Source: Georhizobium profundi
GTDB taxonomy: Bacteria; Pseudomonadota; Alphaproteobacteria; Rhizobiales; Rhizobiaceae
DNA length: 64,000 bases
NCBI RefSeq assembly: GCF_003952725.1
Contig: NZ_CP032509.1
Location: 2,380,001 to 2,444,000 of the forward strand
Reading direction: 5' to 3'
In this document: positions 49,385 to 64,000 of the stretch, piece after piece
Numbering within the stretch: position 1 is the stretch's first letter
Layout: each line of letters opens with the position of its first letter
Position numbers and translations under genes: made by a program
The notes under the pieces: generated by a model
The model's database searches: none
The model's input: the letters and a program-made list of their open reading frames with translations, nothing else
Told to the model about the DNA's origin: nothing

Positions 49385-49460
49385 GAGCCTGTAGCTCAGC
49401 TGGTAGAGCAACTGACTTTTAATCAGTAGGTCCAGGGTTCGACCCCCTGCGGGCTCACCA
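49385..49460 (+). tRNA. tRNA-Lys(TTT), probable integration site
   Basis: 76 bases including encoded CCA. Acceptor GAGCCTG pairs with CGGGCTC; D-arm TAGCTCAGCTGGTAGAGC; anticodon stem ACTGA/TCAGT with loop CTTTTAA, anticodon TTT; T-arm CAGGG-TTCGACC-CCCTG. A tyrosine integrase gene and phage genes begin just downstream, so its 3' end is the likely attachment site. Confidence 0.95.
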
Positions 49461-50308: not shown

Positions 50309-51607
50309 TTAGAGACCCGTCTCCGTTTCGCCACCGTCGTCGTACCACGACATCATCTTGCCGATCGCGTTGTCGGCCATCTCCGGATGGCGCGCGAGGT
50401 AGTGCTTGAGCACCTGCGTAGCGCTGGCAAGTGAGTGGCCGGTGACCGATGTGATTTCAGGGATGGTCGCGCCGGCGAGCGCCATCCAGACCACGGCCGT
50501 ATCGCGGAAGTCCATTTCCCAGAAGCCCTCGAGCGTCGGGCAGGGCGCGATGATCTGGCGGCCGTTCTCGTCGACGACGCCCTTGACTGCCTGCTCCTGG
50601 ACGATCCGGAACATGCGGCGATAGGGCCAGGCGCCAAAGGGCTGCCAGGTCTGCTCGTTGAGGATGACGTGGGGTGAGACGATGCCGGCGGCCTGGCGGC
50701 GCTCCTGTGCTGCCTTGAGCCTGCGGGCGAGCTCCGGCGGTTCCTTAATGGCGACGACGGCGCCCGTCTTCGCCTGGCGGAAGACGCGCCGGCCGTTGAC
50801 GAGGCCGCGATCGACGAGCTCCAGGCGATCAGCCTGGCGCTGCCCCGTCCAGACGGCGAGGGTGAACATGTCGCCGAGCTCCGGCCGGCCCATGTGATCG
50901 GCGACCGCGACGAGCGTCTCGAGCTCGGCACGCGAGGCGAAGCGCACGCGCGGCTCCGGTGTCGCCATGCCCAGGCCAAGCGCCGGGTTCGTCTTCAGTC
51001 GCTTGAACTTGCCCCGGTTGAGGCCCCAGCTGATCGCGGCCGAGAGCGTGGCCATGGCGCCGCGCGCCGTCGCCAGGCCGCGCGTCTGCCAGAGATCCTC
51101 ATAAAGCCCATAGCAGATGACGCGATCGAGCGCGTCGACTTCCGACGCCCAGAGATCCGGATCGTGGCTCTCGATCACGCGCGCCTTCTGCTTGAAATCG
51201 CGGATCGTGTTGGCCGTGTAGATCTTGCCGCCGATGGGTTTCCTTGCCCCGCCCTTAAGCTTCTCGCCTTCGGCTGCGGCGCTGGCGGGGGCCCCGATAC
51301 CGCCGAACTTCGGCGATCGATACCAGTCTTCGAACAGGCGGCCGAGCGGATAGGTGGGGGCGATCTTCTTCGGTGCCGTGCGCGCGGCCACCGCGCTGCG
51401 CTTCGCGTTGTGCCGATCGGCGGCGAGCTTGCGGCAGAAATCCACCGACCAGTCCACGGCCTCGCCGCGGCTGAACCATCGGCCGTCGGCGTGCTTGAGA
51501 TCTTGGGCGACATAGCCGAGCGCGCGCAGCGTCTTCGCCGGCGAGAAGCGCGGCCGGCCGTCTCGCCAGTCGACGTGTGGATGGGGGTTCTTGCGTTTCG
51601 TCGGCAT
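50309..51607 (-). CDS. Phage tyrosine integrase
   Basis: 432 residues from the ATG at 51607 (in-frame 51631 is an alternative). The C-terminal catalytic domain has box I Arg in VWTGQRQADRLE, box II as MDFRDTAVVWMALAG with the His of HxxR replaced, TGHS, and the nucleophile Tyr in VLKHYLARH. This variant box II is common in alphaproteobacterial phage integrases with a (D)LRGTAV motif. It points toward the tRNA-Lys, as expected for the enzyme that integrated there. Confidence 0.92.
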   Translation of the reverse strand: MPTKRKNPHPHVDWRDGRPRFSPAKTLRALGYVAQDLKHADGRWFSRGEAVDWSVDFCRKLAADRHNAKRSAVAARTAPKKIAPTYPLGRLFEDWYRSPKFGGIGAPASAAAEGEKLKGGARKPIGGKIYTANTIRDFKQKARVIESHDPDLWASEVDALDRVICYGLYEDLWQTRGLATARGAMATLSAAISWGLNRGKFKRLKTNPALGLGMATPEPRVRFASRAELETLVAVADHMGRPELGDMFTLAVWTGQRQADRLELVDRGLVNGRRVFRQAKTGAVVAIKEPPELARRLKAAQERRQAAGIVSPHVILNEQTWQPFGAWPYRRMFRIVQEQAVKGVVDENGRQIIAPCPTLEGFWEMDFRDTAVVWMALAGATIPEITSVTGHSLASATQVLKHYLARHPEMADNAIGKMMSWYDDGGETETGL

Positions 51608-51671
51608 GATCGCGGCTCCATTCGTGATCATCGGGCAGCATGAGATCGCCCGGGCAGGAAGTCAAAGAAAT

Positions 51672-53103: not shown

Positions 53104-53384
53104 GCCCGGCCTCCATAGCGCAGGCGCAGGGCGGCGTTTTGGGCGGCGATCGCGTCGGCCGCCGGCGGCGGATCTCGTGGGGCCTCATTGTCGTTGGCCG
53201 CAAGCGCGTTGCCTTCCAGCCAGGTTTCGATCGAGCGGCGTGGCCAGAGCCAGCCGGCGGCCGACTTGCGCGGCATGCCGAGCTTCACGTGACGCTGCAG
53301 CCAGGTGCGCTTCAGCGTGTCGGGCTTCAGGCCCAGCATCTCTGCCAGCTCCTTCAGCCCTACGAATTTTTCTGAGAGATGCAT
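53100..53384 (-). CDS. Helix-turn-helix (excisionase/AlpA-like) protein, first gene of the leftward operon
   Basis: 94 residues. KFVGLKELAEMLGLKPDTLKRTW is a MerR/excisionase-type HTH, then WPRRSIETWLEG fits the wing. First gene after the leftward promoter, so it may be excisionase or a control protein. The C-terminal third is Ala/Pro-rich. Family assignment is by pattern only. Confidence 0.7.
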   Translation of the reverse strand: MHLSEKFVGLKELAEMLGLKPDTLKRTWLQRHVKLGMPRKSAAGWLWPRRSIETWLEGNALAANDNEAPRDPPPAADAIAAQNAALRLRYGGRA

Positions 53385-53431
53385 CGCGATCCCCTCGCTT
53401 CCCCCAAATCACCATGATCAGGGTCGAGCGA

Positions 53432-53460
53432 AGGATGTGAATGAAATCACTTTATGTCAA
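53432..53460 (-). promoter_or_regulatory. Leftward early promoter with repressor operator
   Basis: On the minus strand TTGACA (53460-53455) is a perfect -35; 17 bases on, CATCCT is a weak -10. The palindrome GTGA-N6-TCAC (53437-53450) fills the spacer. The same 17-base block, with two differences, is at the rightward promoter (54462), which marks it as an operator of the element's own repressor. Confidence 0.65.
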
Positions 53461-53622
53461 GAATTTTCCATGGAACGTGTTCACACCTGTAGGTGACGCG
53501 ATGCGGCGTAGCCGTCTGCCTGGCATTGGTGTCCACAGATTTCGCTATTTCGCGAGCTCGCTTTATCGCGATCCTCAGCGGCCGAGGATTTTGCAACGGG
53601 TTGCACGCGATGTTTTCCGCCC

Positions 53623-53767
53623 GGTTTAATCAAGTGCCAGCGCGTGGCTAAACCGTGTGGTTTAGTCCAGTGCGAGTCTGGCGAAATCCGCCCGGGTTGA
53701 TCTAGTGCGGAGCGCCAGAAATCCGCCCGGTTTAGTCCAGTGCCAACCGTGCGGTTTAATCAAGTGC
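53623..53767. repeat. Five direct repeats of GGTTTARTCMAGTGC
   Basis: Copies of a 15-base motif start at 53623, 53659, 53694, 53729 and 53753 (spacing 36, 35, 35, 24). Copies 1 and 5 are identical (GGTTTAATCAAGTGC), as are 2 and 4 (GGTTTAGTCCAGTGC); copy 3 is GGGTTGATCTAGTGC. The units share upstream CCGCCCGG. The array ends 3 bases before the repressor stop codon. Iteron, centromere-like or stoperator-like function is possible. Confidence 0.8.
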
Positions 53768-53771
53768 GGGA

Positions 53772-54413
53772 TTAGGCGGCGTTTGCGGAACGCTCGCGCA
53801 TCATCGTGACGACGACGCCCTTGATCTGAACGCGCTCGTTATCGACGAGCAAAGGTCTGCGCAGCGAGTTGTCCATCGAGGCCGCGACCAGGAATGGGTG
53901 CTCGTAAACCCTGAACAGGATCTCAGCCTGGCCCATGGCGTTCATCACCTGCGCGCAGACCACGTCGCCGTTGCTCGGGGTTGCGTTCATGTCGACGACC
54001 AGGACGTCGCCCGGCAGGTAACCGGCCGTCTCTAAGCCACGAGAACGCAGGATCCAGGGATCGATGCCGTTGCGCATGCTTTTGAGCTCGACCAGCATCT
54101 TTCGCAGAGTGCCTGCACTGTCGCGGCTCTCGATGACGAGGTCGTAGTGGGTTGCCTCGTCCTCTGCCAAGCCGCGCTGCATGGCAGGTGGCTTGCGCTC
54201 GAATGGCGGGATGCCACCCACAGCGGCGATTTTCTCGATCACTTCTGTTGAGAGGGTCGCGGTCCCAGAAGTGTCGTTGACGAACTTCGTCAAAGTCGAC
54301 GGGTTGATGCCCGCCTCGCGTGAGAGGCGCGCACGTTTCCAATCCTTGAAATCAAGGATTGCGTTCACCCACTCCAGGTGTTTTCGCCGGACGTTTTCCA
54401 CAACGCGATACAT
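53772..54413 (-). CDS. CI-like phage repressor without recognisable autoprotease residues
   Basis: 213 residues from the ATG at 54413. An N-terminal HTH (ARLSREAGINPSTLTKFVND) is joined to an S24/LexA-like domain with GYLPGDVLVVD and GDVVCAQVMN. Where LexA has the Ser of SMxP, this protein reads RSRGLETAGYLP, and the lysine position near AEILFRVYEHP has no Lys. It may therefore not self-cleave. Two matched operators flank it. The frame extends to 54992 but the extension overlaps the rightward operon. Confidence 0.82.
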   Translation of the reverse strand: MYRVVENVRRKHLEWVNAILDFKDWKRARLSREAGINPSTLTKFVNDTSGTATLSTEVIEKIAAVGGIPPFERKPPAMQRGLAEDEATHYDLVIESRDSAGTLRKMLVELKSMRNGIDPWILRSRGLETAGYLPGDVLVVDMNATPSNGDVVCAQVMNAMGQAEILFRVYEHPFLVAASMDNSLRRPLLVDNERVQIKGVVVTMMRERSANAA

Positions 54414-54453
54414 AGCAGCGTCCGCATCACAAGCCTGACGGCCTGGAATTAAC

Positions 54454-54480
54454 TTGACTAAGTGAAGCAAATCACTTTTT
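54454..54480 (+). promoter_or_regulatory. Rightward early promoter with repressor operator
   Basis: TTGACT (54454-54459) is a good -35; the spacer contains the palindrome GTGA-N6-TCAC (54462-54475), followed by a T-run. It matches the operator at 53437. The start of the first rightward gene is 34 bases downstream of the operator. Confidence 0.6.
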
Positions 54481-54513
54481 CGATGGAAAAGGCAATGGAG
54501 GCTCCGTCGAAAA

Positions 54514-54747
54514 ATGACACAAATGCGGCGATGGTCTGAGGTCAAGCGCAAAATCCAGTCGGTGGAGTGGACGATTGCGGGTCTCGCACGCAAGGCCGGC
54601 ATCTCGGAAAGCACCATCCACAAGGGCGTGAAGCACAACACGTCGCTGCGGCCATCTACGGCGAAGGTCATCGGCGACGCTTTCGCCGAGCATGCCAGGG
54701 AAGAGGCGCTTGCCGAGGCGCAGGACGCGCAAGAGCGCGCAGCATGA
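54514..54747 (+). CDS. Small HTH (Cro-like) protein, first gene of the rightward operon
   Basis: 77 residues. WTIAGLARKAGISESTIHKGV is a clear XRE-type HTH, followed by an Ala/Glu-rich helix. Position and size suit a Cro-type or early activator protein. The stop overlaps the next ATG. Confidence 0.78.
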   Translation: MTQMRRWSEVKRKIQSVEWTIAGLARKAGISESTIHKGVKHNTSLRPSTAKVIGDAFAEHAREEALAEAQDAQERAA

Positions 54748-54989
54748 TCATCTCCGAGATCAACATCTGCGACCGCGTGCGGCCCGGGCAGGATCCGAGC
54801 GGCGTGCATGAAAGCATGCTCGACGACATCAAGCGTGAGGCCCGCCGGGCCGCCTGGCGCGGGATCACCTTCACCCACTACGGCTTCGACAAGGCTTCCG
54901 GCCGCGTCGCCATCCAGGCGATCGCCGGCACCGGCCCGGCCACGCTCGACGCCCTCAAGCTTTTCGCAATCGAGGAGAGACGGCGATGA
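54744..54989 (+). CDS. Small unknown phage early protein
   Basis: 81 residues starting MIISEINICDRVRP; contains WRGITFTHYGF and a C-terminal helix. ATGA overlaps on both sides show it is translated with its neighbours. Not recognised. Confidence 0.72.
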   Translation: MIISEINICDRVRPGQDPSGVHESMLDDIKREARRAAWRGITFTHYGFDKASGRVAIQAIAGTGPATLDALKLFAIEERRR

Positions 54990-55159
54990 CACCCGAATTC
55001 ACCTTGCTTTGTGTTCTCTTAGGCGCCGGCGTGGCGCTGCTCTATGGTGGCGCGGCCGGGATCGTCGGCGCCGACAGCGCCCGCGAGCGGGCAGGTGGCT
55101 CGATCGTCTTCGCCGCCGGCGTCGCGGTCATCACCATTATCTGCTGGGGCACGGTATGA
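54986..55159 (+). CDS. Small two-helix membrane protein
   Basis: 57 residues. Two hydrophobic segments (about residues 6-26 and 38-56) separated by the charged GADSARERAGG make it a membrane hairpin. It overlaps both neighbours by 4 bases, which supports that it is real despite its size. Function unknown; an exclusion or membrane-associated early role is possible. Confidence 0.7.
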   Translation: MTPEFTLLCVLLGAGVALLYGGAAGIVGADSARERAGGSIVFAAGVAVITIICWGTV

Positions 55160-55491
55160 CCCTGATGGAACCGATGATCCGCGCCATGCACGCCGCGCTG
55201 GACGACGCCGGGCGGGCCGACGTGCTTTTGCGCTGCCCGCGTGCGGTGCTGATGAAGTTTCACCACGTGTTCATGGATGCCTGCGGCAAAGCGCAATTCG
55301 AGGCCGGGATCGAATATCTGATCGTCGAGCAATCGGCGCGCCATGCCGTGCTGCAGGCCGACGGCACCTTGCCCCCGGTGATGCAGGCGGGCTGCGACAT
55401 GATGCGGCTCAATCTCGTGAGGATCGTGAAGGCCGCTGCCCAGGCGCGGAAAGCCGAGGCTGCGATCGGAGAGGGGACCGATGCCCCATGA
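55156..55491 (+). CDS. Small unknown phage early protein
   Basis: 111 residues, helical, with several Met residues and RCPRAVLMKFHHVFMDACG. ATGA overlaps with neighbours. No motif recognised. Confidence 0.72.
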   Translation: MTLMEPMIRAMHAALDDAGRADVLLRCPRAVLMKFHHVFMDACGKAQFEAGIEYLIVEQSARHAVLQADGTLPPVMQAGCDMMRLNLVRIVKAAAQARKAEAAIGEGTDAP

Positions 55492-56000
55492 CGGATGTCA
55501 TTGCGATCGAGGATCGGCGGCTCGCTCTCAAGGTGTCGATCCGGAAGCTGGAACGCACAGCCGGGCTTTCGCACGGCGAGTATCGCCGGATCGTCGACAG
55601 CCAGAGCTGCCGGCCGACGACAATCGCCAAGTTGGAACAGGCCTTGGCGCGGCTTTCGCGGCGCGAGGATCCGCACGATCGCGAGCGGCTCGAGGAATGC
55701 GTGTTCCGGCTATGCGTGGCGATCGTGGCGATGGAGGCCGGCACCAATGCCGCCTTCGTCTTTTCCCACGACCCGGCCAAGCGGGCGACGGCGAACCCGG
55801 ACTGGATGCGCGCGGCCGAGCTGCGCCGCAAGGCGCTTTACATGGCCAATGTCGTCGTCGGCCTGCCACAGGCCACGCTGGCGCGCGCCGCCGGCATGAC
55901 GAAATCGGCCGTCTCGCTCGCCATGCAGGAGCTCGAAGCCGAGCGGCCGGACAGCGGCCCGGATTTTTTCAGCCATTTCGAGGAGGCGTTGCAGGGATGA
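55488..56000 (+). CDS. Phage protein with C-terminal helix-turn-helix
   Basis: 170 residues. GLPQATLARAAGMTKSAVSLAMQELE is a strong HTH near the C-terminus; the N-terminus (KLERTAGLSHGEYRRIVD) may be a second HTH. It could be a replication or transcription control protein. ATGA overlaps on both sides. Confidence 0.75.
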   Translation: MTDVIAIEDRRLALKVSIRKLERTAGLSHGEYRRIVDSQSCRPTTIAKLEQALARLSRREDPHDRERLEECVFRLCVAIVAMEAGTNAAFVFSHDPAKRATANPDWMRAAELRRKALYMANVVVGLPQATLARAAGMTKSAVSLAMQELEAERPDSGPDFFSHFEEALQG

Positions 56001-56248
56001 CTAGCGCGGTCGACGAGCACCAGGTCAACAAGATCTACGACACGATGTCGGAATATTGCGCTTGCCGCGATCCGCGCGAGGTGCTGGCAGCGCTCGGCGA
56101 GCTCGTGGCCGACACCTATGTCGCCTGCTCCGGCAGCCATGCCAGCGCGATCGAGGGCGCAACGGATCTCCACCGGCAAATTTTGATCCGGATCGATGCG
56201 GCCGAACAGGCCGTCGGGATCCCGTTTCGCGGGGGTGAGCGGCAATGA
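55997..56248 (+). CDS. Small unknown phage early protein
   Basis: 83 residues, helical, with CACRDPREVLAALGELVAD. Overlaps its neighbours by 4 bases. Not recognised. Confidence 0.7.
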   Translation: MTSAVDEHQVNKIYDTMSEYCACRDPREVLAALGELVADTYVACSGSHASAIEGATDLHRQILIRIDAAEQAVGIPFRGGERQ

Positions 56249-56922
56249 GCAAGTCTAACTTCGAAGGCGATCTCTCCGGCCGCGACTATTTCGTCAAGCG
56301 CGTCGGCTGGCGCTGGCAGGTGTGGTTCCGTCACGTCGACGGCACAGGCGACGACAACGGCGCGAAAGAGTGGCTGGCCTGTGCCGTGCTCTACTGGCGC
56401 CGGATCAACGCCGAGCGTGCCGCCATTGCTATGCACCAGGCGTTCAACGCCGGCGTCTGGTGCGAAAGCGGCCGGAACAATGTCGACGCGCTTCAACAGC
56501 GGGTGGCCGCCGTATCAGGAACGCTAGAGGCGGTGGAGCCGGTGGCGTGGCCCATCGAGACGGAAGATCAGGTCGAAGCGCTCGCCCGCGAGTGCGATTG
56601 GGATAACCGCAAGTACATGACGCCGCCCGATTATACGATCTGGTGTGAGCGCATGCGGAAATTCGCTCGCCTCGCCGCCGCACCCCCATCCGATCCGGTC
56701 GGACAAGCGGCAGTGACGAAATACTGCACATGCAAAAATAGCAAGACGAACCCGTGTATCGTTTGCGGGAAGAAAAAGTTCATCGACCCGAAATGGCTTC
56801 TACGGAGGCTTGAAGCGCACCCAGATGAGGGGGAAATCGGCGCTGGTAGAGAAATGTTTTCCGCATCCCCTGCACCGGAAGCGGGAAGCGCGACCCGCCG
56901 CGATCCATGGGTGAAGCCATGA
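56245..56922 (+). CDS. Unknown phage protein with a Cys-rich knuckle
   Basis: 225 residues. The middle is Trp-rich (WRWQVWFRHVDG, WLACAVLYWRR); near the C-terminus CTCKNSKTNPCIVCGKKK may bind zinc. Its stop overlaps the primase start (ATGA). Not recognised as a family. Confidence 0.72.
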   Translation: MSKSNFEGDLSGRDYFVKRVGWRWQVWFRHVDGTGDDNGAKEWLACAVLYWRRINAERAAIAMHQAFNAGVWCESGRNNVDALQQRVAAVSGTLEAVEPVAWPIETEDQVEALARECDWDNRKYMTPPDYTIWCERMRKFARLAAAPPSDPVGQAAVTKYCTCKNSKTNPCIVCGKKKFIDPKWLLRRLEAHPDEGEIGAGREMFSASPAPEAGSATRRDPWVKP

Positions 56923-58019
56923 ACCGCGATGATCTGCCGGAGATCAAGCAGGCGCTGAAGGATCGGATCCAGGAGCTGTGCCGTGCGCTTCTGCCGGACG
57001 GCCGGCCGATCGGGCGGCTCTACATCGCGCACAATCCCGTCACCCTCGATCACGACAAGTCGCCTGAATTCAAGGTGGCGCTGAACCGTGACACCGGCGC
57101 ATGGAAGGACTGGCGCACGGGCGAGAAGGGCGACGTGATCCGCCTGATCGAGTACGTCAAAGGCACCGATTTCGCCGGCGCCATGCAGTTTGCGCGCGAC
57201 TTCCTCGGCATCCGCCAGATGACGGCCGAGGAGCGCCGGCGCTTCACTGAGGAGAGCCGCGCCCGCGTGGCGGCGGCGACCGTGAAGGCGGAAAAAGACC
57301 AGCGCCACAACCGCGAGAAGGGCGAAGCGCTCTTCCTGGAGGGTTTGCTCGACGGCGCGGGATCCACGGCCGAGCACTATGCCAAGCGCTATTTCGAGGG
57401 CCGTGGCTGCCCGCTCTTCCAGGTGCCGAACCGGGATATCGCGACGATGCGCTATTCCGCCGGCACGGAATACTGGAAGCTTGCGGACTGGAAGCGGCAT
57501 GCCGACGGCCGCCTGGAGAAGCTGAAGGCCGGGCCGATGCTGCCGGCGATCCATTCCGCCTTTCGCACGGCCACCGGACAAGTGGTTGCCTGCCATTGCA
57601 CGTTTCTCGACCCGGTGGAGCCGATCAAGGCGCGGCTTGGAGGCGATACCGCCAAGCTGATGCGCGGCGAGGTGCAGGGCGCCGTCATCCGGATCAGCCA
57701 CGGGCCGGAAGGCCTGCCGCCGGAAGAGGCGCGCCGGGCGTTTCCGCTGATCATCGGCGAGGGGATCGAGAACTCGCTTTCCGTGGCGATCGCCGTGCCC
57801 GAGGCGCGCGTGTGGGCGGCCGGATCGCTCGCCAATATCGGCAACTGCCCGGTGGATCTGCCCTGCATCTCTTCCGTGATCGTGGCGATCGACAACGACT
57901 GGCAGAACGCCCAGGCGCAAAAGCAGCTCGAGAACGGGATCCGCGCGCTCGCCGCCAAGGGCAAGCCCGTCAGCATCATGGCCGCCCATGCGGGCAGCGA
58001 CTTCAACGACATGTTTTGA
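56919..58019 (+). CDS. Toprim-domain phage primase
   Basis: 366 residues from ATG at 56919. A primase-like N-domain (ALNRDTGAWKDWRTGEKGDVIRL, seen as WKDWRTGEKGDVIRLIEY) lacks an obvious CHC2 zinc finger. The toprim domain has LIIGEGIENSLS with the catalytic Glu and VIVAIDNDWQN with the acidic pair. It should prime DNA synthesis of the element together with the P-loop helicase encoded at 60014. Confidence 0.87.
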   Translation: MNRDDLPEIKQALKDRIQELCRALLPDGRPIGRLYIAHNPVTLDHDKSPEFKVALNRDTGAWKDWRTGEKGDVIRLIEYVKGTDFAGAMQFARDFLGIRQMTAEERRRFTEESRARVAAATVKAEKDQRHNREKGEALFLEGLLDGAGSTAEHYAKRYFEGRGCPLFQVPNRDIATMRYSAGTEYWKLADWKRHADGRLEKLKAGPMLPAIHSAFRTATGQVVACHCTFLDPVEPIKARLGGDTAKLMRGEVQGAVIRISHGPEGLPPEEARRAFPLIIGEGIENSLSVAIAVPEARVWAAGSLANIGNCPVDLPCISSVIVAIDNDWQNAQAQKQLENGIRALAAKGKPVSIMAAHAGSDFNDMF

Positions 58020-58036
58020 AACGAGAGGACGGAACG

Positions 58037-58285
58037 ATGAGTGACGAAAGAATGATCGACAGCGCCAGCGATGAACGCACGGCCAATAATGCCGTGCGCC
58101 ACCAATATCGCTCGCTGAGTGACAGCGAGAAGGCCGACATGGTGGCGCTGAAGGATCACGGCGCGGCCTTCCTGCAGGCGATCGACGCGGTGGAGCGCCG
58201 ATCGGCGCCGAGCCGTGAGCTCTCGCTTGCCCGCACGAAGGTCGAAGAGGCCGTCATGTGGGCCGTCAAGCACGTCACGCGGTGA
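58037..58285 (+). CDS. Acb2/Tad1-like domain protein (putative cyclic-nucleotide sponge)
   Basis: 82 residues. The pattern YRSLSDSEKADMVALKDHG (residues 24-42) and SLARTKVEEAVMWAVKHVT (63-81) is that of the small helical hairpin family of anti-CBASS Acb2 and related Tad1 proteins found in many phages. Acb2 sequesters cyclic di- and trinucleotides, Tad1 a gcADPR signal. Which, if either, this protein binds cannot be read from sequence. It has its own GGAACG ribosome site after the primase gene. Confidence 0.72.
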   Translation: MSDERMIDSASDERTANNAVRHQYRSLSDSEKADMVALKDHGAAFLQAIDAVERRSAPSRELSLARTKVEEAVMWAVKHVTR

Positions 58286-58290
58286 CCGGC

Positions 58291-58569
58291 ATGGGCAGAT
58301 ACAGAAAATTGCCGGTCGAGATCGAAGCCGTGCAGTGGTTCAAGCCCGGCGATCATCCGAAAGTCAAAAGCGGCGCCGGGCCGGCCACCTGGCCGGATGG
58401 CAGCATCAAGGTTGCTGGAGCCGATTGCGGTTTCATAGAAACGCTGGAAGGCGGCCACATCGTCACGCCAGGCGACTGGATTATCCAGGGCGTGAACGGC
58501 GAATTCTACCCGTGCAAGCCCGACATTTTCGCGAAAACCTACGAGCCCGTGGAGCCCAGCCATGTCTGA
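58291..58569 (+). CDS. Conserved small phage protein
   Basis: 92 residues. [12 protein letters not shown] near the start and [22 protein letters not shown] toward the end, seen as [18 protein letters not shown], form a pattern common in small phage proteins of unknown function. GTG at 58282 overlapping the previous stop is an alternative start. Overlaps the next gene by 8 bases. Confidence 0.85.
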
Positions 58570-58822
58570 CACAGGCGGGATCGCCCGCGACCAGCTGCAG
58601 GCCTTCGTCGATCGCATCGAGCGCCTCGAGGAAGAGAAGAAGACGATCAGCGACGACATCAAGGATGTTTATGCCGAGGCCAAGGGCACCGGCTTCGACA
58701 CGGCAGCGCTGCGCAGGGTCATCGCCCTGCGCAAGCTCGATAAGGACGAACGGATGGAACAGGAAGCCATCCTCGACACCTACCTCCATGCGCTCGGCAT
58801 GGGGCCCGCACCCGATCTTTAA
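58562..58822 (+). CDS. GapR-like DUF2312 nucleoid-associated protein
   Basis: 86 residues. The family pattern is nearly complete: [49 protein letters not shown] and [10 protein letters not shown]. Caulobacter GapR clamps overtwisted DNA ahead of forks and RNA polymerase. A phage-borne copy may serve its own replication or compete with the host protein. Complete; alpha-helical, coiled-coil dimer expected. Confidence 0.9.
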
Positions 58823-58953
58823 CGAATACCCAGGCGGTCTGGTCCGGCTCGCGAGGCCGTCAGCACCCATCGACCCGGCCTGAAGCCGGATAGGGGACCT
58901 TAGAAGGTAGGGGCAAAGCCCGCCGCCACCCCCAACACAAGCGAGGAACGACG

Positions 58954-59874
58954 ATGAGCAAGAGGAAGAGCAATGCGCAAGGCGGATCAGCTGCAAAGCC
59001 GGAAGCTGGCACGGGCCCGGACCAGGAAGCGCCTGAAGGTGCTGAAACCGTGGTCGCGGCCGGCGGCGAAGCATCTGGAGAGCCGGCAGACGCGGGCACT
59101 GGCGGGGATGCTGGCGCTCCAGCTGATAATGGAGCCGCGACTGTTGGGGCGGAGAGCGTGAATAATGAAGGCGCCGAAGAAAGCTCCGAGCCGGCTGCCC
59201 TCGAAATGGCTGGAGACGGCGCAAGTGGATCTGATCAGCCGACCATCGCAAGTCCGGAAGAGCAGGCCCCCGAAGGGACTGACGGAGCTGATGACAGTGC
59301 TGCGGCGCAGTCGGAGGGTTCTGCAGATCCAGAAAGCGTGGCCAGCGATGGGCCGGTAGCGCCGGACGGCAGTCCGGACACCGACGGCGTGCCTGGCAGC
59401 CCGGGCCCGGACCCGGACAGCATCGCCACAACGGCCATGCTCGCCGCCGGCGCCGCCTATTTTCGAGCAACGCGGCTCGGCGAGGAGGTTGCGGACGGGA
59501 TCGATTTCGGCTGGCTGATAGACGATCGCAAGAATGAGATTGTCGATCGCCGCGCATCGGCCGAACGGGCCGTCATTGCGCTTGCCGAATTCTGCCGCAA
59601 AGTGCCCGGAGCCTCTGCCGGTACACTGGTGATGCAGCTGCAGCTTAGCCGCTATCGCGCGAGCGCCGAGACCACGCCCGAGGAACACGTTGCCTTCAAC
59701 GTGTTCGCCTGGACGCTGCATCAACTCGACTGGCTGGCGAAGATCCGCGCGGCCGAGGCGCGTGAGAAGCACAAGAAAATCCCGAAGCCGGCGGCGATCG
59801 ACATCGAGGAGACGACGCTTGCGCTCGTCGACGAACCGATGGCGCTGACCGAAATCGGCATGCGGAGCCGCTAA
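58954..59874 (+). CDS. Phage protein with a long acidic low-complexity N-terminus
   Basis: 306 residues. Residues 1 to about 160 are Ala/Gly/Asp/Glu/Pro-rich and look disordered; residues about 160-300 form a helical domain (DSIATTAMLAAGAAYF onward). Codon use changes sharply at the junction (about 59436): GCT, GGA and GAT codons are frequent before it and rare after. A second frame (58973-59359) is also open in two short pieces with its own GAGGAAG site. GAGGA supports the start at 58954. Not recognised. Confidence 0.7.
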   Translation: MSKRKSNAQGGSAAKPEAGTGPDQEAPEGAETVVAAGGEASGEPADAGTGGDAGAPADNGAATVGAESVNNEGAEESSEPAALEMAGDGASGSDQPTIASPEEQAPEGTDGADDSAAAQSEGSADPESVASDGPVAPDGSPDTDGVPGSPGPDPDSIATTAMLAAGAAYFRATRLGEEVADGIDFGWLIDDRKNEIVDRRASAERAVIALAEFCRKVPGASAGTLVMQLQLSRYRASAETTPEEHVAFNVFAWTLHQLDWLAKIRAAEAREKHKKIPKPAAIDIEETTLALVDEPMALTEIGMRSR

Positions 59875-59924
59875 GCCGGGCCACCAAGATCCGCGGCGCG
59901 ACCTCTCCGCGCGCCGCTGATGAG

Positions 59925-59966
59925 ACCGCCGGCCTCCTCCCGCAACAGGGCCGGCGGTTTTTCTTT
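59925..59966 (+). terminator. Intrinsic terminator before the helicase gene
   Basis: ACCGCCGGCC (59925-59934) and GGCCGGCGGT (59949-59958) form a perfect 10-bp stem with a 14-base loop, then TTTTTCTTTT. It probably ends the rightward early transcript. Confidence 0.85.
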
Positions 59967-60013
59967 TCAGGCAAGAGGCGGCCGGGGCGGCCGCGACAGG
60001 GCGCAGCATTCAC

Positions 60014-61867
60014 GTGGCAAAACGCAAGACCATCAACCATGCCGGCGTGACCGGAACCCGCGCCGTATTTCTCGATGCGATGCGCTGGATCGAAAGTCGC
60101 GCGATCGCCGAGGATCCCGATCCCAACTTTTCGCGCGACGGTATCAAGCCCGGGCAATGGCCTGGCGCACCATGGGACAATCTTCCGCCGAACTGCCCCG
60201 TCCAGGTGCTCGGCCACAATGGCGATCTGATCTATTGCCGATCGGCCACCGGCCAGCTGCACGAGGTCGAGCGCTGGGACTATCCCACGCTCGTCAAGCT
60301 TTTCGCGCCCTACATCAATTTTCTCTATTGGGCCTGGCCCGGGTTCGGATCCGGCGGCAAGGATGCCGACGGCCAGGAGCTGCCGCCGATCGTCAAGCGC
60401 GTGGAGCGCGACAAGGCCGTGACGTGCCTGATCGCAGAGGGCAAGCGGCGCGGCCTCTTCGACCCGAAGAAGCGCGTGCGCGGCCGTGGCGGCTGGATGG
60501 CGGCCAATGGCGCCTTCGTCTGGCATTCCGGCGAGCGGATCTGGACGGTCGATAGCGGTCTCAAGCTCTCATGCGCGGATCCCGGCGAGCATGACGGCGA
60601 TTTCTACACCAAGCTGCCGAGCGTGATGGAGCCCTGGCAGATGCCGGTCAACATTCTCGACACGCCGGCGTCGCGGATCCTCGAGGATCTCAAGACCTGG
60701 AACTGGGAGCGGCCCTATCTCGACCCGCTGTTGCTGCTCGGCTGGATCGGCACCGCCTTCATGGGCGGGGCGCTTGCCAACCGGCCGATCGTCTTTACCA
60801 CCGGCGGCGCCGGCGTCGGCAAATCGACGCTGCACCAGGTGACCGAAGCGATCCTGGACGACGCCGTGCATGCGCTCGTCGACACGACGGCCGCCGGCAT
60901 CTATCAGCACGTGAAGCACGACAGCCTGCCCGTGACGGTCGACGAGCTCGAGGCGAAGAAGGGTTCGACGAAGGCGACGGCCGTCATCGAGCTCGCGCGC
61001 CTGGCCTTCTCCGGCGGCAAGATGGCACGCGGCGGCGCCAGCCACGACGGCACGACGTTCCAGGCGCGATCGTGCTTCATGTTTTCGGCCATACTGCACC
61101 CGCCGCTCGCCGTCCAGGACAAGACGCGCATGGCGATCCTGAACCTGCGAAAGCTGAACAAGGGCCACGGCCGGGAACCGGTGATCAACGACGCCGACGG
61201 CCGCATGCTGTTGCGCCAGGTGATGGACGGCTGGACGGGCTTCAACACCAAGATCCTGCCGGACTGGCGCAAGACGCTGCACATGGCCGAATTCGATGCG
61301 CGCGCCATCTCGACCTATGGCACGCTGCTGGCGGCCGCCGAGCTGCTCGTCGGACCGCTGGCCATGGAAGCCATCGGCCTGCCGGTCGGCGACCAGCATG
61401 CGCTGGCGGAGATGATCCAGGAGGCGACGTCGGTCGAGCGCGCCGAGCAGATGGAGAAGTGGCAGGAATGCCTCGAGCATTTGTTGGCGGCGCCGATCGA
61501 GGGCTACAATGGTGGGCAGCGAATGACCGTGGGCAGCGTGCTGCATGAATTCGAGAATGTCGGTCAGACCATCGAGATCACGCGCGACAAGCTGGCGCTC
61601 GCCGGCCTCGGCATTCGCCGCGCCGGCGATCCAGGGCAGGGACCGTGCCTTGCCATTCCCGCCCAGCACCCGGCGCTCGGCAAGATCTTCCAGGACACCG
61701 ATTTCTACGATGGCGGATGGATCAACGCGCTGAAGCAGGGGCCGGACCAGGTGGTGCTGACCAAAGCGCCGAAGAACACCAAGGTCGTGAAGATCTCGCG
61801 CGTTGCCAAGCACTGCCTGCTCGTTGATCTCGGCAGCTATGACGCGATGATGCCGAAGGAACAATAG
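60014..61867 (+). CDS. Phage P-loop replicative helicase/primase-helicase
   Basis: 617 residues. GSGGKDADG and a variable N-terminal half precede an ATPase with Walker A GGAGVGKST (about residue 275), Walker B-like LPVTVDELEAKKG and RSCFMFSAILHPPL, which is the layout of virus/plasmid D5- or DUF927-like helicases. The start is GTG. Partner of the toprim primase in element replication, by context. The C-terminal domain is not recognised. Confidence 0.8.
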   Translation: MAKRKTINHAGVTGTRAVFLDAMRWIESRAIAEDPDPNFSRDGIKPGQWPGAPWDNLPPNCPVQVLGHNGDLIYCRSATGQLHEVERWDYPTLVKLFAPYINFLYWAWPGFGSGGKDADGQELPPIVKRVERDKAVTCLIAEGKRRGLFDPKKRVRGRGGWMAANGAFVWHSGERIWTVDSGLKLSCADPGEHDGDFYTKLPSVMEPWQMPVNILDTPASRILEDLKTWNWERPYLDPLLLLGWIGTAFMGGALANRPIVFTTGGAGVGKSTLHQVTEAILDDAVHALVDTTAAGIYQHVKHDSLPVTVDELEAKKGSTKATAVIELARLAFSGGKMARGGASHDGTTFQARSCFMFSAILHPPLAVQDKTRMAILNLRKLNKGHGREPVINDADGRMLLRQVMDGWTGFNTKILPDWRKTLHMAEFDARAISTYGTLLAAAELLVGPLAMEAIGLPVGDQHALAEMIQEATSVERAEQMEKWQECLEHLLAAPIEGYNGGQRMTVGSVLHEFENVGQTIEITRDKLALAGLGIRRAGDPGQGPCLAIPAQHPALGKIFQDTDFYDGGWINALKQGPDQVVLTKAPKNTKVVKISRVAKHCLLVDLGSYDAMMPKEQ

Positions 61868-61931
61868 GGCTCCACAGCGGGCGCCCTGGCTGGCAGGATG
61901 GCCTTCCTTGAGTCTGGGGAGGCTGAGCTGC

Positions 61932-62240
61932 ATGATCCCTTACACCCTGTCCGCGCTGATCCTCGTCTTCGGTGGCGGCTTCGCCTGGTGGTTTGCCTCG
62001 GACCGTTTCCCAGGCTGGTTTGCGCGACAGCTCTCAAATCAGGTCGATCGCAGTCCGGCTGCCCGCCGGCCGTCGGCAGATGGCATATATACCTTCACGA
62101 TCGAGGAGCTGCAGGAGCACAATCGAAGCCTGATCTACTCGATCGGCCACCAGATTTCGCCGTTGATCGGCATTGCTGCAGTGCTCGTTTTCGGCGCGAT
62201 CCTCTCCAATTTCACTGATTTTCCACCGCCCATGCCCTGA
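61932..62240 (+). CDS. Small phage membrane protein
   Basis: 102 residues with an N-terminal helix (LSALILVFGGGFAWWFA) and a C-terminal helix (PLIGIAAVLVFGAIL), the middle being soluble. GGGGAGG lies 9 bases before the ATG. Could be part of a lysis or membrane function; not recognised. Confidence 0.72.
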   Translation: MIPYTLSALILVFGGGFAWWFASDRFPGWFARQLSNQVDRSPAARRPSADGIYTFTIEELQEHNRSLIYSIGHQISPLIGIAAVLVFGAILSNFTDFPPPMP

Positions 62241-62735
62241 TCAGAGGGCATTTATCCCGGCCGCACTTGACCCTCCTTACCCCTGCCCATGAGAGGAAAA
62301 ACGGAGCCCGCGCGCGACCACGGAAACGCCCACGGATCAGGCGGTCGCCTCGATCCATGGACGCCACGATGGCCGGTGCGAGTAGCTGCGCGGGCACTTG
62401 ATCAGGGGCAGGCCGTGACACGGTGGATGACTGCCGGCGAACGGGTGCGGGAGACGCATCCCGGTTAGCTTCGGTAAGACACGGTTAGACGGGTTCTAAC
62501 CGGATTTCATCAATCAAAACAATGCGGTAAGCCATGCGGTTAGAAGTTAGCCCGGTAAGCAAGAGTTTCATACGCGCGCGCGTGCATACACGCGAGACTA
62601 TCTAACCATCTAACTTCTAACCCGTGGGTATATCTTCCTGAAAAGACAGGCATTTCGCGGTTAGATTGTGGTTAGAAACCGATGCGGCGCCGCCGGTCGG
62701 TCTAACCGCCATAGACAATTCGGGATCAATTCACG
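62241..62735. other. Non-coding region with GGTTAGA repeats, before the terminase genes
   Basis: 495 bases without a credible gene. The right half (62463-62707) is a repeat cluster; a run of alternating CG/GT (about 62571-62594) lies inside it. The left half shows no clear structure. It probably controls the following genes or is the replication origin. Confidence 0.65.
62463..62707. repeat. Cluster of GGTTAGA repeats in both orientations
   Basis: Exact GGTTAGA at 62483, 62538, 62659 and 62670; exact TCTAACC at 62495, 62601, 62616 and 62701; near copies at 62463, 62545 and 62609. The pair 62482-62489/62495-62502 is a perfect 8-bp inverted repeat with a 5-base spacer. Eight exact 7-mers in about 225 bases cannot be chance. 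Possible iterons of an origin. Confidence 0.85.
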
Positions 62736-63419
62736 ATGGCCGACCAGGGCGACGACACGGCAGATCAGAGGTTTTTGACGGCTCACCGGCCGGGCGAAAA
62801 TCCCGGCGCGGATCCGGAGCGGCCAGATCCGGAGCGGGCGGCGAAGGTCGGCGATCGGAAGGCGACGGCCGAGGCCGCGATCGAAGACCTGGCGCGGCAG
62901 ATCGCCGGCGGCGACGAGGAGGCCGAGGCCGACCAGCTTGACCTGATGCTCGACCCTGACCTGCCCTTGTTCAAGGGGCCGGTGGCGCATGTGGCGAATA
63001 CCATCGAGAGCGCTCGCGGGCGCGGGAGGCCGGTCGGCTCGAAGAACAAGGCCAACCAACTCTTCCGCGATACGCTGATGCGGATGGGCTTCCGGCATCC
63101 CGGCTTGAACCTGGCGGCGCTGGCGAACGCGGATCCGCGCGAGCTGTCCGCCGAGCTCTCGCAGCCGCGATGGGACAAGAAGACGGAGCGGTGGATCGAG
63201 GCGAGCTGTACGCCGGGCGAGGCCATGAAGCTGATCAAGGATGCGAACGCCGAGCTGCTGCCCTACTTCGAGAGCAAGCGCCCGACCGAGGTCCACGTGC
63301 AGCGCCGCGAGCTCGGCGTGTTCATCATGGGCGAGATGGCCATCGACCAGGGCGACGACGAGGGCATGATCGACGTGACCAGGGCGCAAGAGCCGAAGTC
63401 AACGAATTCAGGCACTTAG
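62736..63419 (+). CDS. Probable terminase small subunit
   Basis: 227 residues. A basic AT-hook-like GRGRPVGSKNKANQLFRD in the middle, an acidic N-terminus, and helices after it suit a DNA-recognising terminase small subunit, and the large subunit starts 367 bases on. Identification rests mainly on position; the sequence family is not certain. Confidence 0.6.
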   Translation: MADQGDDTADQRFLTAHRPGENPGADPERPDPERAAKVGDRKATAEAAIEDLARQIAGGDEEAEADQLDLMLDPDLPLFKGPVAHVANTIESARGRGRPVGSKNKANQLFRDTLMRMGFRHPGLNLAALANADPRELSAELSQPRWDKKTERWIEASCTPGEAMKLIKDANAELLPYFESKRPTEVHVQRRELGVFIMGEMAIDQGDDEGMIDVTRAQEPKSTNSGT

Positions 63420-63785
63420 CCTTGTGGCAAATGGTGAAGATGACCCACGATCAGGCTATCGCATTGATCCTGTTGCGGAAATGGCCAGTAGCATACTGAT
63501 CTAAAATCAGTAGACCAAGACCGGGTTTCGACCTGGATTGAATGACCCCTCGGCCCTCGCTGGCCTATCGGCGAACCCGGGCCCCCGGTGCCGATCGGCA
63601 GGGGCGGGTGGCCGGCGACGCGGCTTCGAAACTCGCGGACGGCCCTGGTGGGGGGCCTATTCTGCCTCACACACACCTGCCTGAACAGACCGGCGGCACT
63701 CGACCGGTGGCCGGCGGTCTTAGTCTCGACCTCAAGCGGCGGGCGCGGGCACGCGCGATCCGCACGGGTGCCGAGGGTCCAGGGT
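63420..63785. other. Non-coding stretch between terminase genes
   Basis: 366 bases, very GC-rich to the right, without a credible gene. It contains a tRNA-like hairpin pair (63494-63536) and the 12-bp palindrome TGCCGATCGGCA (63589-63600). Function is unknown; packaging signals often lie near terminase genes. Confidence 0.5.
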
Positions 63786-64000
63786 TTGGGAAATATCAAT
63801 CTGCAGCGCTACAAGCCGCCCGGGCCGGTCGGCGCGGCTTTCATCCAATCGCGCGGGCCGATCGACCTGATCATGGGCCCAGCAGGCAGCGGCAAGACGG
63901 TTGCTTCGGTGGTCAAGGGTCCGTCGCTCGCCTCGAGCTACTTCCCCGTCTGCAAGGATGGGTGGGTGAGGGTGAAGATCGCCTGCATCCGCGACACCTA
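63786..64000 (+). CDS. Terminase large subunit, N-terminal part (runs off the window)
   Basis: The last 215 bases encode the start of an ATPase: after INLQRYKPPGPVG comes IMGPAGSGKT, the Walker A (DNA-packaging motor) motif, near residue 40, then SLASSYFPVCKDGWVRVKI. The TTG at 63786 is the likely start; GTG further upstream is possible. The layout matches portal-side phage terminases whose P-loop is near the N-terminus. Confidence 0.8.
   Translation, partial: MGNINLQRYKPPGPVGAAFIQSRGPIDLIMGPAGSGKTVASVVKGPSLASSYFPVCKDGWVRVKIACIRDT

Follow-up and report, generated by a model that had tools for sequence, protein, structure and literature searches.

What is the function of a gene of 82 codons that lies directly behind a primase-like gene in the chromosome of Georhizobium profundi, a member of the Rhizobiaceae? 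The question is raised by a stretch of 64,000 nucleotides (contig NZ_CP032509.1 of assembly GCF_003952725.1, forward strand, positions 2,380,001 to 2,444,000), which is called the window here and to which the coordinates below refer. An earlier note on this DNA had proposed that the open reading frame (ORF) at 58037..58285 (plus strand) encodes a putative helical-hairpin protein of the Acb2/Tad1 kind, directed against the cyclic-oligonucleotide-based antiphage signaling system (CBASS) or against Thoeris and made early in infection. The reading frame itself is as described. It starts with ATG, comprises 82 codons, and its stop ends at 58285, and the product contains the motifs that had been quoted, YRSLS at residues 24–28, K39, G42, and EEAVMWAVKH at residues 70–79. 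The analysis suggests that the gene probably encodes an Acb2-type cyclic-oligonucleotide sponge, that is, an anti-CBASS protein, of a prophage integrated at a tRNA-Lys gene; ligand binding is a prediction.

The 82-residue protein is a further member of the already known Acb2/Tad1 hairpin family. Its residues 24–82 (58106..58282, plus strand, without the stop codon) match PF24729, the model of this hairpin, with an E-value of 4.3e-20 and a score of 72.1 bits, where the curated cut-off is 27; a profile search of this kind was one of the checks that the earlier note had recommended. The same model gives 66.1 bits for PaMx33 Acb2, 71.0 bits for a T4-type Vs.4 homolog, and 34.2 bits for the Tad1 of SBSphiJ7. 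In a homology search started from the 82-residue protein, 2,330 proteins were scored as candidates, and 2,321 of them (clustered at 90% identity) matched at E <= 1e-3. PF24729 is carried by all 120 homologs among the matches listed, and UniRef gives two of these (P0055 and P0108) the name “Acb2/Tad1 domain-containing”. Because of this number of homologs, of the at least 499 confirmed relatives in a scan of viral contigs, and of the alphaproteobacterial origin of 70/80 genome loci (read from record titles), Acb2-type hairpin proteins seem to be frequent among viral contigs and alphaproteobacteria. In the window's own genome, a single 4.36-Mb contig, one match was found. The PHROGs matched were all families without an assigned function (phrog_717 at best, 1.5e-07), and NCBIfam and PADLOC returned nothing for the protein. 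A literature search for PF24729 or an Acb2-like family found no paper, and one for “Acb2 homolog” found a review only. The entry 9ptq of the Protein Data Bank (PDB) is an “Acb2 homolog 43”, so homologs of Acb2 are already under study.

Structural comparisons point in the same direction. Searched by itself against PDB sequences, the protein had no match. With a 27-sequence profile, the nine best chains were all Acb2 (p26), Vs.4, Tad1, or “Acb2 homolog 43”, with weak E-values of 0.016–0.069, and the next chain, an unrelated one, followed at 0.32. In the AlphaFold2 model, the mean predicted local distance difference test (pLDDT) value is 84.9, with blocks of 96–98 for residues 31 to 80, and helices are predicted at residues 29–55 and 60–81, which form an antiparallel two-helix hairpin like that of the solved PF24729 members. 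Foldseek placed only Acb2, Vs.4, or Tad1 at ranks 1–16, with probabilities of 0.75–0.99 and weak E-values. VIA-align also had Vs.4 (7uq2) in the top row, but it did not separate Acb2, Vs.4, and Tad1 from unrelated helical hairpins. The absence of a fold match to Acb2/Tad1 had been named in advance as grounds for rejecting the proposal; a match was returned both by the PDB profile search and by Foldseek, although structural scores carry little weight by themselves, helical hairpins being a frequent fold. Membership in the family is thus supported by Pfam, the PDB profile search, the Foldseek ranking, and a conserved pair of residues.

This pair consists of Tyr24 (codon at 58106..58108) and Lys39 (codon at 58151..58153), which correspond in position to Tyr11 and Lys26 of Acb2, the residues that we take to hold the cyclic dinucleotide. 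The spacing (Tyr-x14-Lys, a step of 15 residues) is identical in the window protein, in PaMx33 Acb2, and in the T4-type protein, where the residues are Tyr8 and Lys23. Conservation was assessed in an alignment built from 160 loci and from 119 of the 120 proteins listed, which yielded 260 distinct rows, the closest relatives by design; residues were counted over the rows with a letter at the given column. Tyrosine occupies its position in 249/254 rows and lysine in 255/255. The strict pattern Tyr-x14-Lys-Asp/Glu was found in 79/80 viral loci and 71/80 genome loci. Two Roseovarius relatives (L151:31-222 and L154:3983-4210) keep the hairpin and parts of the N-terminal extension described below and have no tyrosine at the binding position (RHACRVL and RHIPRTL); these proteins perhaps have a variant pocket.

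Which of the known sponges does the protein resemble? Acb2 of the Pseudomonas phages PaP2/PaMx33 (p26; PDB 8h2j, 8h2x, 8ixz) shares with it the PF24729 hairpin, the small size, and the Tyr-x14-Lys spacing, and neither protein has an added beta domain. The identity to PaMx33 Acb2 is 25%. Unlike the latter, the window protein has a conserved N-terminal segment of 16 residues, and it has neither the C-terminal tail nor the long insert between the helices. Vs.4/Acb2 of T4-type phages (PDB 7uq2) is 30% identical to it and differs at the termini in the same way; the protein compared was that of Escherichia phage PaulHMueller, to which a 22-residue probe of the PDB chain matched exactly. The tails of the PaMx33 and T4-type proteins (AQPDSF, FQPEEKY) have no counterpart in the window protein. 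Acb2 acts as a sponge according to a review (PMC12043709) and a preprint (PMC11722364), and the latter states that Acb4 is not a structural homolog of Acb2, Tad1, or Tad2. Acb4 and Tad2 likely do the same job of soaking up signals as the window protein, a likeness by description only.

The comparison with Tad1 (SBSphiJ7 and a Clostridium botulinum prophage; PDB 7uav, 8kbe) is less favorable. Its C-terminal hairpin shares the motif RE...EEA.MW with the window protein. However, the Tad1 of SBSphiJ7 has 142 residues, and the window protein, with its 82, is devoid of the N-terminal beta-sheet that precedes the two helices of Tad1 (PMC12043709). The 23 residues before the hairpin leave no room for such a domain. 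The adjacent gene at 58291..58569 (plus strand) encodes a PGDYG-like phage protein of 92 residues (phrog_419, 1.8e-34; PF14083, 0.0082, below the cut-off) from a very abundant family (7,998/7,999 scored candidates match). A split Tad1 with this protein as the N-terminal domain was considered and rejected: BLASTP gave no alignment to SBSphiJ7 Tad1 (no profile comparison was made); a single-sequence PDB search found no solved relative and no Tad1 chain (best E-value 0.37, unrelated); single-sequence phmmer and a motif scan found no second member near 160 relatives of the sponge gene; and the PF24729 label occurred on 0/120 PGDYG-like homologs among the matches listed (of 7,998). Anti-Thoeris action of the 82-residue protein is therefore conceivable but not supported, because the Tad1 N-terminal domain is absent and there is no sign that the PGDYG-like neighbor supplies it. 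Only the anti-CBASS half of the original double proposal is retained, as a likely function.

The N-terminal segment deserves separate attention. It corresponds to codons 8–23 (58058..58105, plus strand) and follows the pattern SxSDxRTxNNxxRH, in which Ser9 is conserved in 233/243 rows, Arg14 in 244/244, Asn17 in 245/249, Asn18 in 239/250, Arg21 in 251/253, and His22 in 245/253. By text pattern, the extension is present in 78/80 viral loci and 64/80 genome loci; one of the two patterns used to fetch the genome loci is itself N-terminal and favors the extension, and the viral loci were not chosen in this way. From whole-genome PF24729 samples, 28 loci were retrieved in addition to that of the window, and an ORF was recovered in 26. 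Ten of these 26 have the extension, all inside the class of the host, and the five loci outside the class are without it. A few genome loci labeled as other phyla (e.g., L091 and L099) also carry it, which means that its occurrence extends beyond one class. In the AlphaFold2 model, the segment appears as coil and a short helix with low confidence (blocks of 45–54), which a deeper alignment of 66 rows did not raise.

In a tree of 55 rows and 62 columns, the window protein lies among 42 rows, and PaMx33 and T4-type Acb2 lie among the other 13 (split support 96/87); hence, it does not group with the studied Acb2 proteins. The tree has few columns and a midpoint root, and Tad1 was left out. Of the 160 related loci, 29 were included; six loci of the PF24729 samples were omitted besides that of the window, four as too divergent (L179, L187, L188, L192) and two without a recovered ORF (L185, L186). 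The idea that the extension marks a single clean clade was rejected: its label needs eight changes on the tree, at least three of which are forced by well-supported branches, and 15/42 rows on the window's side are without it by text pattern. Part of the label changes arise from mislabeled ORF starts (L140 and L195 share an identical hairpin and are labeled differently), and the Roseovarius loci L151 and L154 were labeled extension-less because the text pattern required the tyrosine. A second PF24729 type (RWLA.GR..IEQG.MA.NRA) was observed in the family and class of the host (L172, L173, L175, L180, L196). It groups with PaMx33 Acb2 in the tree, and both types occur in one genome (G178, loci L170 and L180).

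The gene is part of a prophage of approximately 38.8 kb that extends beyond the window, as it is sited among phage genes between two 46-bp repeats. The left repeat, attL (49415..49460, plus strand), is the 3′ end of the tRNA-Lys gene at 49385–49460, and attR, its exact copy, lies outside the window at the window-equivalent position 88177–88222. Between them are found an integrase gene (50309..51631, minus strand; phrog_1, 2.3e-20), an ORF that is UmuD-like in part, and genes for the primase, the terminase large subunit, a head-tail adaptor, the major head protein, tail proteins, and an endolysin-like protein. Judging by the connector and tail families, the phage may be a podovirus. As the earlier note had stated, the gene follows a primase gene: the primase-like gene (56907..58019, plus strand) matches Toprim_3 (1.4e-13, with DUF7146) and the PHROG “DNA primase” (3.4e-31), and its stop is 17 bp from the start of the acb2-like gene. 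Downstream, a gap of 5 bp separates the latter from the PGDYG-like gene, which overlaps by 8 bp with a gene for a GapR-like DNA-binding protein (58562..58822, plus strand; PF10073, 2.6e-34), two genes downstream of the acb2-like gene. Further on lies the gene for a replication-type protein of 617 residues (60014..61867, plus strand; phrog_21086, of unknown function, 2.7e-55; phrog_35358, DNA primase, 1.9e-34), for which no Pfam family was matched. This same-strand run resembles an operon, and scans of 53300–64000 for promoters and terminators gave matches no commoner than in shuffled sequences.

The host chromosome has no SMODS match and no ThsB_TIR match; a search for the DncV-like and SAVED families gave no match in any control genome either and is hence uninformative. 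Among 199 genomes of the host family, its own included, SMODS was found in 28 (24 over the cut-off) and ThsB_TIR in 16, so suitable defenses exist in related hosts. The 28 genomes with SMODS include one of the two other genomes of the same genus. PF24729 occurred in 10 of the 199 genomes (nine over the cut-off), two of which had SMODS and one ThsB; in this set, PF24729 showed no association with markers of CBASS or Thoeris.

Could a protein of this fold serve another purpose? The N-extended proteins might capture a different signal, with SxSDxRTxNNxxRH as part of the pocket; the trinucleotides of type III CRISPR systems, glycocyclic ADP-ribose (gcADPR) or its isomers, and an unfamiliar alarm molecule are candidates. 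The extension is conserved as strongly as the tyrosine and lysine and is absent from PaMx33 and T4-type Acb2; the C-terminal tail of these proteins is missing here, the tree sets them apart, and neither SMODS nor ThsB was matched in the host. Nevertheless, the unchanged Tyr/Lys pair points to the same pocket, the position of the extension near this pocket is a guess, given the low model confidence, and its presence needs several changes on the tree. A different signal is thus judged unlikely. The possibility that the small ORF is a chance or mis-called one without a product is close to nil. Nothing but its size and the long overlapping ORFs in the same stretch would favor it, and it is refuted by the conservation, with 2,321 homologous proteins and near-invariant residues across distinct rows, to which the tight spacing to both flanking genes can be added.

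A role in phage assembly, as a hairpin protein that helps in head-tail morphogenesis without nucleotide binding, is suggested by the gene context of some relatives. The homolog in Sinorhizobium phage Aussie is flanked by head-to-tail adaptor and stopper genes. After dereplication of the 160 loci to 139, with neighboring genes called by a longest-ORF rule instead of a gene finder, a neighbor within 400 bp was found upstream in 125 cases and downstream in 134, and all 84 plus-strand upstream neighbors and 86 of the 87 plus-strand downstream neighbors were scanned. A portal family was matched by 11/84 upstream neighbors, and head morphogenesis and head-tail adaptor families were matched by 4/86 and 3/86 downstream neighbors, respectively. 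On the other hand, replication or recombination genes are found close to the window gene and to at least one further relative: the homolog in a metagenomic podovirus record is near exonuclease and RecT genes. Within the fetched stretches of the relatives, GapR homologs occur in 7/160 and primase homologs in 5/160; the nearest neighbors of the homolog in Dunaliella viridis virus SI2 are unnamed. Ligand binding is also favored by membership in the family and by the retained Tyr/Lys pair, and a purely structural helper appears very improbable. The gene is placed in both early and late modules, and therefore it is the gene order of the window's prophage alone that speaks for early synthesis. The predicted timing fits this locus and should not be generalized, as some relatives reside in late head-tail modules.

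If the protein is an Acb2-type sponge, its two-helix hairpin protomers would assemble into an oligomer, which is a hexamer in the studied Acb2. Such an oligomer would bind the alarm signals, cyclic di- and trinucleotides, in pockets to which Tyr24 and Lys39 belong, and with the signals captured, a CBASS-type effector would stay off during phage replication. The relatives are putative sponges too. It may even be, although we regard this as rather doubtful, that they form a large, mostly alphaproteobacterial set in which the N-terminal segment replaces the C-terminal tail of Acb2 at the pocket and alters the signal specificity, perhaps toward a novel alarm nucleotide, and that their placement among early and among head-tail genes would serve against both early and capsid-triggered defenses. 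The specificity for signals would be accessible through one small protein.
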